A DNA stretch of 64,000 bases from Pilasporangium apinafurcum (taxonomy: Eukaryota > Oomycota > Peronosporomycetes > Pythiales > Pythiaceae): positions 129,194-193,193 of the forward strand of contig BCKE01000072.1 of the NCBI GenBank assembly GCA_001600495.1. Direction: 5' to 3'. Positions 36,059-39,673 of the stretch are shown piece by piece. Every line of letters begins with the position of its first letter. Within the stretch, counting starts at the first letter, position 1. The notes beneath the pieces are model-generated. The model made no database searches. It had not been told where the DNA came from and was given only the letters and a program-made list of their open reading frames with translations. Made by a program: the position numbers and the translations under genes.

Positions 36059-37566
36059 TTAAGCCGTCTTTTCCATCTCCACGGCCACAGCCTCCGCAGA
36101 AATTTCATCTTCAGTAGACGGGCGATCTGAGTTATTGGAAGGAGACTTGACTTTGCTGGATGTCTTCTGAAGTGCAAGTGTCGCTTGCACCGTGTTGATA
36201 GCAGCCTTGAACTTACGGCGGGCGTTAAAGCGACGCAATTCTTCCAACGCGCTCGTGAGCTGCACTGTTGCGACTTCGTTACCCGTGACCCAGCGGTGTT
36301 CAAGCAATTGCCCGACCGTAGCTCTACAGATCCGAGCAGCAGCCATCATCAGCAACTAATTGACATGAGTGATATAGCTATTAAAAATGATAAAAACTCG
36401 TACCTTTTCGATGGATCGACTACCAGCATCTTGCTGATCAAGTCCTTGGCGTCATCAGACACATGGTCCCAGTATGGAGAATCGAACTGGAACGTGCCCT
36501 TTTTGATCTTCTTGAAAAGAGCATTGTGGTTGTCATCGTGGAATGGAGGATACCCACAAAGCAAAATGTATGTGATGACACCGATGCTCCAGATGTCCAC
36601 AGCTTTGCCATAAGGATGTCCTTCCAGAATCTCAGGGGCAACATACCCAGGAGTACCGCACGCTGTGACCAATCCTTCGCTATCAAACTCGATCTTCTTC
36701 GCGAAGCCAAAGTCTGCCAGCTTGATGGACGCATCGTCATCCTTGCTGGTTAAGAGCAAGTTCTCTGGTTTCAAGTCACGATGAACAATGTCGGCATCAT
36801 GGCAATACTTGATGGCCTCGAGCAACAACTTGACCAAGTCACGAGCTTCTCTTTCACTGTAGTAAGACTTTAAATGGCATGAAGATACATAATTCAGATG
36901 GGTTAATCTCTTATAGTCAGAATCATTATCACCAAGGGATTTTTTCATATACATACCTTTTGCACAATGCGATCGAACAGCTCGCCACCAGCCATAAACT
37001 CCGTGACAAGGTAGTAGTACTTTTCTTCCGCGAAGAAATCGTGCAAAATCATGATATTGGGATGGTTCATCTACACAAATGTTCGAAAGGCTGAGTATCA
37101 CGTCCCCTCCAGTAAACTGGACAGTTATAATCAGCGACAGACAATCCATACCTGCTTCAAGATGGCCACTTCGGTGGTCAGTGCTTCGATATCTTCGGCG
37201 ACCAAGCCATCACGCTTGATGCATTTGATCGCGTAGCGTTGGGCAGTGGGCTTATGAATCGCGTCACGGACAACCGAGAAAGTCCCCGAACCGATCGTTT
37301 TGCCGAGAGTGTACTGCTCTTCAAAGCTGTTCGGGTTGGGAGCCGTACTCCCACTGTCCACCGACTGCGTGTCGCTCGTCGCCACGCTCCGCTTTTCCAC
37401 ACCATTCACAGTCGGCGTTGGGGTGGGCTCAGAAACAATCACTTCGTCCTGTTAAAATACAACACGGGTACGTACGTCAGTGCCCACCACGCAAGAGAAG
37501 GTGAGATAGATCCAGGGAGCTCGTCAATGGAGACACACTTACGGGTTTGGAATTAGCGCAGCCCAT
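36059..37566 (-). CDS. Calcium/calmodulin-dependent-type protein kinase with N-terminal acylation motif
   Basis: Five exons: 37566-37543, 37448-37152, 37070-36957, 36867-36404 and 36323-36059, all phases consistent, 387 residues. The eight-codon first exon encodes MGCANSKP, a classic N-myristoylation site with an adjacent cysteine for palmitoylation, so membrane anchoring is likely. The Ser/Thr kinase domain is complete: GSGTFSVV loop, AIKCIKRDG lysine, FMAGGELFDRIV, HRDLKPEN catalytic loop, ADFGFAKK, CGTPGYVAPE, IWSIGVITYILLCGYPPF and LLEHRWVTG. A CaMK-like tail follows (RRFNARRKFKAAINTVQA), matching the autoinhibitory/calmodulin-binding position. Confidence 0.94.
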
Positions 37567-37965: not shown

Positions 37966-39673
37966 TCAGAGTGTGAACGTGAACTTGTCGCCCTATTTAA
38001 CCACAAAATAACGAGAAGACGAGTCATTATCTGACCCCACGAACAGCATAGCTGACAACTGCAGCATCATCCTAAGGAAAGTACTAAAAAAAGGCATACC
38101 TGACGGAGCTTGGTGTTGAGTTTTGGCTCCACATACGAGATGCGCTTTAGGTGGCGAGTCACACGTTTCTGGAAAGGACTACGTTGTGGGCTCAATACAG
38201 AGATGATATAATTGGAGTGGGTTTGCTTGGTGACTGGCATTATGCAATGGTTGTGTCGGCGGGGTTTGGTTGATTGGCTAGTTCTCTTGAGAAGACCGTA
38301 GTAGTCACCCTGTGATGCAATCCAAAGCAGTAGTTTCACATAGGTGTGCTGTAACCTAGTATGCAGTTGAAGATTGTTTACCCGCCGTATCTTAACATTC
38401 AGCCTTGGCTCAATATAGGATAAAGTCTCATCACGCATGCGTAGCCGCCGTCTAATTTCAATCTGCGCATAAACATACGTCTTTCAAAAGTAGTGTCGAT
38501 TTCGCTACAAGATCGCTTAGACAAACGCACATGGGGAGAAAGACGCTCTGATTGTAGCGTTGCCACTGTTGTTGTTTCATCTTCCTAGTTGCGATAACAC
38601 AATAGCCACGGTCTTAGAAATGGCGGTAAAAAGTGTGTACTATCATACATGGTACCTCTATAATCATCGGTATCGGTCGTACATCAGGTATACCTTCAAA
38701 GTTCCTAGATATGCTTGAATTATTCGCTTTTGGCTTTTCCTGCATTTGCATTTGCTTAGAATTACTGTAGGCAACGACAGTGAGTTCCGGGTAGACACAA
38801 GATTATGCAAACCTTTTTACGTGGCGGTTGCTTCAATGGCGATCTTTTACTACAATATCTATCACCGAGTACCAACTCACGCCTTGCGATATTTACGATT
38901 GGCGAGAGTATTCTGGAATTCTTCTTGCTCTTGGATTTACAAAGAGATTAGATGTGCGTTCAGATACCCTTCCACACAACATAATCGTTTACAGATTTGT
39001 CACTGCGATCAGGAGATAGTTGCGGTTCAACTTGGCGAATGTTTCCCGGCGATAGCTTATCTTGATGAAATTGATTCATGTGCTTGGTGTAGTTTGTGCT
39101 CACTGAATCGCACTGAATTGATCGATCACAAACTGATAGGAATTGAATGATATGAGATTAATTCACCATGATCATATAATGGTAATATATGAGCTGCACC
39201 ATGCCTTTCTTGCTTCTATAATGCGTATTCATCCATGCAATGACTACATTCAGCCAAATCATTTGGTAACATTGGGTAGCGATAATGAGATTGAGTGCTA
39301 CTCATTTCAAAAATGAGCATCACATAACAATGCAACCTTTTTCTGAAAACACCGCAGTTTGTGTTTTCCTCACTAAGCAGAAACGTCAATGTGGCCATCT
39401 AAGAAAGCATGTGTAAAATGTCAGGCGCATTACCTTTGGTTAGCTCCATCTTTGTTGAATTCTTTGAGCAAAAAAGACAAAGGAACGTAACATCATCAGC
39501 GGTTCGTGCACGATTTTGTGATCAAGAATCCATTAAACACAGCAAATTCCTACCAAAGCCTTCGCCAGTTGTCGGTTCTTGTCCGTGAGCGCCTCCACGT
39601 GTGCGCGGAGCTGCTGCAGCTCCTGCATGATTCCATAGACATATCCCGTGCTCTTCTTCCTTCCTTTCACCAT
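37966..39673 (-). CDS. Shugoshin-like protein with two C-terminal SGO motifs
   Basis: Ten short exons with unbroken phase: 39673-39554, 39461-39434, 39372-39337, 39132-38968, 38929-38881, 38764-38656, 38584-38531, 38462-38382, 38309-38100 and 37992-37966, 292 residues. Shugoshins protect centromeric cohesin by recruiting PP2A through an N-terminal coiled coil. They bind phosphorylated histone H2A through a basic C-terminal motif. Here an N-terminal heptad stretch (MQELQQLRAHVEALTDKNRQ, ending LAKALNSTKMELTK) is followed by a polar middle. The SGO motif occurs twice: RRRLRMRDETLSYIEPRLN, VKIRR, GDYY (residues about 192-218) and RHLKRISYVEPKLNTKLRQ, GDKFTF (about 265-290). The reference pattern is YxEPxLxxKLRxGDxFT. 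In both copies an intron splits the motif just before GD. Some middle exons are uncertain. Confidence 0.78.

Follow-up and report, generated by a model that had tools for sequence, protein, structure and literature searches.

Shugoshin is regarded as a guardian of the glue that joins sister chromosomes. Its C-terminal SGO motif contributes to its positioning on centromeric chromatin and has been described as one short element. In other chromatin proteins tandem reader domains make up multivalent chromatin readers. The cited parts of PMC4301718 and PMC5134366 describe one SGO motif per shugoshin, a generalization based on those papers and not on a eukaryote-wide survey. Two shugoshin genes are present in fission yeast, Arabidopsis and mammals according to an excerpt of PMC5579357.

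The DNA analysed here (the window) is a stretch of 64,000 nucleotides from Pilasporangium apinafurcum. Its minus strand carries a ten-exon gene, running from position 39673 to 37966, which is an oomycete orthologue of Sgo/Mei-S332. Like the single-motif shugoshins it encodes an N-terminal coiled coil, a disordered middle and a basic C-terminal SGO motif. Yet the layout excerpted from PMC4301718 has one motif near the C-terminus, whereas the window protein has two at a distance of about 70 residues. Motif 2 with its GDKFT tail resembles the vertebrate consensus NYKEPTLASKLRRGDPFT, as quoted from PMC5134366. The lineages with two shugoshin genes share with this locus a duplication that was followed by a possible division of labour; there, however, the whole gene was doubled, while here the motif was doubled inside one gene, and the assembly (36.47 Mb, 136 contigs) yielded no other Shugoshin_C locus. 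As in multivalent chromatin readers, two weak binding elements per chain could yield avidity; in contrast to those, the predicted elements are short linear motifs within disordered sequence, and the protein is presumed to be a dimer.

Reading of the minus strand and joining of phase-consistent splice sites gave a model of 322 amino acids (Table 1). Thus a phase-consistent gene of ten exons, as had been predicted, can be built, and we infer that the gene is spliced in this way. Exons 2 and 3 are the least certain part of the model, which leaves the motifs unaffected. The sole phase-consistent donor of exon 3 found by hand, at 39204 on the minus strand, was a GC (AAAG/GCATGG), which suggests a GC-AG intron. 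A first model of 291 amino acids without exon 3 was dropped because the homologues have the missing KVxEWMEAR segment.

Table 1. Features of the shugoshin gene and its downstream neighbour in the window.
Feature	Position	Strand	Description
Exon 1	39554..39673	-	Contains the start codon and the beginning of the N-terminal coiled coil (MVKGRKKSTGYVYGIMQELQQLRAHVEALTDKNRQLAKAL); aligns with homologues
Exon 2	39434..39461	-	NSTKMELTK, more coiled coil; phase-consistent junctions; aligns with TxTKQELTK of homologues
Exon 3	39205..39297	-	Least certain exon; ...WLNVVIAWMNTHYRSKK, like KVxEWMEARxKP of homologues; GC donor required; phase fitted by hand
Exon 4	38993..39132	-	Starts VCDRSIQC, matched by eye to VQHQATQC of homologues; low-conservation sequence after
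Exon 5	38813..38929	-	Central region, low conservation
Exon 6	38656..38754	-	Central region, low conservation
Exon 7	38531..38584	-	Central region, low conservation
Exon 8	38382..38462	-	Basic stretch RRRLRMRD and SGO motif 1 SYIEPRLNVKIRR, up to the intron
Intron 8	38310..38381	-	72 nt, GT-AG, phase 0, between motif 1 and GDYYGL
Exon 9	38100..38309	-	Tail of motif 1 (GDYYGLL), then a basic linker and SGO motif 2 SYVEPKLNTKLRQ
Intron 9	37993..38099	-	107 nt, GT-AG, phase 0, between motif 2 and GDKFTFTL
Exon 10	37966..37992	-	GDKFTFTL and stop; GDKFTFT or a near form ends those homologues whose models reach there
Downstream protein kinase gene	36349..37566	-	Start about 37566, low end from the ORF list; Pkinase 173.8 bits on 36349-37209

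The two C-terminal SGO motifs, SYIEPRLNVKIRR followed by GDYYGL (motif 1) and SYVEPKLNTKLRQ followed by GDKFTFTL (motif 2), are 70 residues apart. Both were present on the minus strand where the original prediction had placed them, each interrupted between R/Q and GD by an intron, and the introns have the predicted common position and are of phase 0 in either copy. The window protein thus combines RR-GDYYGL in motif 1, RQ-GDKFTFT in motif 2 and a phase-0 intron after each R/Q. The Pfam profile Shugoshin_C (PF07557) scored 25.6 bits on the C-terminal piece at a cut-off of 23.3, which bears out the predicted shugoshin identity; the match was motif 2. Motif 1 of the window protein alone gave no Shugoshin_C match. 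Of the expected profile similarity of both copies the part concerning motif 2 stood, while motif 1 was missed in the window protein. Taken alone, this miss is the very outcome that the original prediction had named as speaking against it, but it is countered by a clear motif 1 in homologues (see below). The first full-length model of 291 amino acids scored 19.3 bits with PF07557, i.e. below the cut-off, and at E ≤ 1 the profile matched 18 of 18 members of alignment A1 including this 291-residue model.

The similarity of motif 1 was assessed further with a profile of the motif-2 sequences from 16 homologues, the window protein being left out. It scored 26.7 on motif 1, whereas 5000 shuffles of the window protein gave 20.2 at most. 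Against the vertebrate SGO1 consensus of 19 residues, as printed in the excerpt of PMC5134366, motif 2 scored 60 and motif 1 scored 44 with a shuffle maximum of 40 (5000 shuffles). With the meiotic consensus of 14 residues from the same excerpt (PMC5134366) the scores were 39 for motif 1, reached by 1 of 5000 shuffles, and 40 for motif 2, reached by none of 5000.

Protein searches yielded 29 homologues, with some species represented more than once. All 27 that carry a species name are from oomycetes, namely Phytophthora, Nothophytophthora, Peronospora, Plasmopara, Hyaloperonospora, Pythium and Albugo. Both motifs were present in the window protein and in 24 of the 29 homologues, a departure from the form with one SGO motif per protein; the motif pattern was written after the alignment had been seen, so that this figure is a count and no test. 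The duplication had been predicted from a single genome, and the agreement with other oomycetes extends it to Phytophthora, downy mildews, Pythium and Albugo; it is not peculiar to one genome. The five remaining models were P0016, P0017, P0018 and P0024, which are devoid of motif 1 while keeping the YYGL tail, and P0023, which has motif 1 and lacks motif 2. The retained tail in four of the five makes loss by annotation likely. In P. palmivora, the only species with such a second model, P0018 was without motif 1 and P0022 had both. Among the 25 proteins that have both motifs the spacing was 53 to 74 residues in 23, and 93 and 134 residues in two intron-keeping models. No double-motif protein from outside the oomycetes was among the named matches listed; the search required shared 5-residue words, limited the candidate length and at E ≤ 10 would miss single-motif proteins, and with Saprolegniales and other stramenopiles beyond its reach absence from Saprolegniales, diatoms or brown algae is not implied.

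Ten homologues out of a first set of 20 were scanned with Pfam for Shugoshin_C stretches at E ≤ 1 per stretch; nine had two and P0007 had only one. The better stretch was motif 1 in six of the ten (P0001, P0003, P0004, P0012, P0013 and P0015). Conservation, expressed as the mean share of the commonest residue in 12 homologues of alignment A2, was 0.88 for motif 1, 0.97 for GDYYGL, 0.93 for motif 2, 0.78 for GDKFTFTL, 0.49 for the linker and 0.31 for the central region; residues 10-48 of the N-terminal coiled coil had a mean of 0.74. The lysine of K-[LI]-R was invariant in both motifs over the 13 rows of alignment A2. The motif endings were specific for the copy, with RR in 22 of 26 motifs 1 and RQ in 28 of 29 motifs 2.

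The N-terminal part was examined by AlphaFold2 with homologue P0003 and 12 relatives. The prediction consisted of one helix from residue 6 to 67 with the rest lacking structure and a mean pLDDT of 57.4; the block pLDDT of the helix was 89-96 over residues 11-60. The window protein aligned with this helix over exons 1-2, consistent with an N-terminal coiled coil, the prediction being a single helix and not a pair. The predicted fold of P0003 fits the shugoshin layout given in the excerpt of PMC4301718. In contrast to single-motif shugoshins, the Pfam family Shugoshin_N had no match at E ≤ 1 in the ten homologues tested or in the window model; for the other members of alignment A1 the result covers the 25 of 32 families that were shown. 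The N-terminal domain is undetected in some accepted shugoshins, too, as stated in a part of PMC5134366. A comparison of solved structures with the family profile gave three matches at E ≤ 10, all on the N-terminal helix only, with a best E of 0.16 and no shugoshin among them.

How did the two motifs arise? Stretches of 22 residues, i.e. the motif plus 9 residues before it, were compared in 16 proteins (15 homologues and the window protein). Mean identity was 0.65 within each motif class as opposed to 0.52 between classes. In 15 of 16 proteins motif 1 was nearest to another motif 1, the exception being Albugo; motif 2 was nearest to another motif 2 in 13 of 16, with ties in Albugo and P. brassicae and an exception in Hyaloperonospora, and close relatives among the rows helped these counts. 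As the copies mostly sort by motif and not by species, a single old duplication without much later mixing is the likeliest course. Introns 8 and 9 agree in site and in phase, which fits a duplication of the motif together with its intron. In the homologues the intron positions were deduced from protein models, not from DNA: at the position of intron 9 the reading of the intron-keeping models P0009, P0014, P0016, P0019, P0025 and P0029 continues with Val, as from a GT donor, and at that of intron 8 P0025 and P0029 have a Val and then GDYYGL after 21 and 26 residues that end with Gln, as from a CAG acceptor. Thus one old duplication of the motif and its internal intron would most likely account for the arrangement, and two independent intron insertions at one spot are less likely. 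The duplication probably preceded the split of Albugo and Phytophthora. This dating was drawn from the presence of both motifs in Albugo and of the YYGL tail after its motif 1 and not from the nearest-copy count, in which Albugo, the row that dates the event, was the motif-1 exception and a motif-2 tie. The protein tree was weak, with just 1 of 9 inner branches strongly supported, and gives no more than a hint that the window protein stands outside the group of Phytophthora and downy mildews.

An SGO motif that reads phosphorylated H2A calls for a Bub1 kinase and a suitable H2A. The assembly has a gene with a Mad3/BUB1 homology region (Mad3_BUB1_I, 122.1 bits). An adjoining ORF on the same strand contains a kinase domain (38.4 bits) with HGDIKPDN, which we take to be a kinase motif as in Bub1, and both ORFs appear to belong to one gene. 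Judged from these sequences the genome encodes a Bub1-type kinase. Contig 28 gave a second, weaker match to Mad3_BUB1_I (22.8 bits), which was dropped; by eye its ORF resembled a HAT-repeat splicing factor. On contig 63 the histone search, in which only the top candidates were scored, revealed two divergent H2A genes that encode an identical protein of 139 amino acids ending with PNIHSVLLPKKSASTGKKGKSSASQDY. Its C-terminus has PKKS with the Bub1-site serine (PNIHSVLLPKKS; C-terminal peptide PNIHSVLLPKKSAS). This serine presumably aligns with T120 of human and S121 of yeast H2A. Contig 34 carries at 328098-328298 an H2A variant (L012) with the C-terminus HIHKNLITKQSKKKTPQ and 51.7 bits for Histone_H2A_C, which is H2A.Z-like by eye; one of the motifs may have this variant as a second target. 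Two H3-like sequences were noted in addition. A divergent histone with a long N-terminal tail on contig 29, from 412573 (Histone, 84.8 bits), is by eye a candidate for CENP-A of the Pilasporangium genome, and an H3-like stretch on contig 50, 276769-277146, has one in-frame TAA and is possibly a pseudogene.

We lean towards the view that the protein reads Bub1-marked nucleosomes divalently, through motifs that have diverged and go back to a single old duplication. The N-terminal coiled coil would dimerize and dock PP2A as in other shugoshins, and the disordered C-terminal part would bear both SGO motifs. The H2A serine (PNIHSVLLPKKS) would be a Bub1 substrate in mitosis as well as in meiosis, and two motifs per chain, i.e. 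four per dimer, would bind the marked nucleosomes together. The resulting avidity may hold the protector on pericentromeric chromatin, where it may span both faces of a single nucleosome or link adjacent ones. That either motif binds H2A is, like divalency itself, presumed here. The lysine of K-L-R in the SGO motif is, as we assume, K492 of the human protein. The human K492A mutant has lost H2ApT120 binding according to an excerpt of PMC11182772. Because this lysine is invariant in both motifs, a divalent reader that is tetravalent as a dimer appears to be the likeliest reading. Rather doubtful is the more specific proposal that the motifs diverged to read two nucleosome states, for instance H2A marked by Bub1 together with either another mark or a variant of H2A, and that cohesin protection needs both at once.

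The copy-specific endings, RR versus RQ and YYGL versus KFTF, suggest that the copies are not simply redundant. A division of roles is the main rival, though an unlikely one in our estimate: one motif, probably motif 2 with its vertebrate-like GDxFT tail, would read phosphorylated H2A, and motif 1 (RRGDYYGL) would bind elsewhere, for instance to H2A.Z, to a different histone mark, to the acidic patch or to a partner protein. The distribution of the endings (22 of 26 and 28 of 29), the GDYYGL conservation of 0.97 and the closer similarity of motif 2 to the vertebrate SGO1 consensus (60 versus 44) agree with such a specialization. On the other hand, the core SYxEPxLNxK[LI]R with its lysine is common to both copies, the meiotic consensus hardly discriminates between motif 2 and motif 1 (40 and 39), and in 6 of 10 homologues it was motif 1 that Pfam matched better. 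We consider a splicing switch improbable. In that case exon 8 would be an optional cassette and intron 8 optionally retained, resulting in one- and two-motif shugoshins. With its 81 nt and a phase-0 junction at either end, exon 8 could indeed be skipped without a frameshift, and retention of intron 8, whose 72 nt are a multiple of three without an in-frame stop, would add 24 residues between motif 1 and GDYYGL; in addition, 4 of 29 homologue models omit motif 1. However, the latter models look like errors of gene prediction, and P0025 and P0029, which keep intron 8, are a biased sample because they were noticed for being open.

The failure of Pfam to detect the window copy might mean that motif 1 has decayed and is without function. 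Such a loss is very improbable and already largely refuted by conservation, which in motif 1 nearly equals that of motif 2 (0.88 versus 0.93) and peaks in its GDYYGL tail, the best conserved block measured. There is, finally, a negligible chance that motif 1 does not form part of the shugoshin protein or has arisen by coincidence. The gene model was built on splice-site and homology logic, which leaves room for such an artefact; but under the motif-2 profile motif 1 outscored all 5000 shuffles, and annotations in many species link both motifs to the coiled coil. Taken together we favor the divalent reader.

The conserved tandem arrangement appears to be undescribed in the literature searched. 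In the main texts of open-licence PMC papers we found neither a description of a two-motif shugoshin nor a study of an oomycete shugoshin, and shugoshin is absent from the main text of PMC7082073, a paper on oomycete centromeres. Family membership as such is known, as databases already label most homologues Shugoshin_C. The two copies kept from Albugo to Phytophthora constitute a natural test of whether valency sets the hold of shugoshin, and the two-motif lineage likewise tests whether an SGO motif can be retuned to another mark. Aneuploidy and polyploidy of oomycetes are called understudied in a passage of PMC7082073. With no oomycete shugoshin study found, a defined and dissectable part should therefore be useful.

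The downstream neighbour of the shugoshin gene is a protein kinase gene (Table 1), which appears to be of the CaMK type by its resemblance to annotations of fused homologues. Both genes are on the same strand, and 400 bp lie between the shugoshin stop and the kinase start. The pairing of both genes is conserved, and in eight homologue models (P0017, P0018, P0020, P0022, P0024, P0026, P0027 and P0028) shugoshin and kinase form one fused protein. These fusions are probably prediction errors, with read-through transcripts as a possibility; in six of the eight, KLRQ runs directly into the apparent second exon of the kinase.
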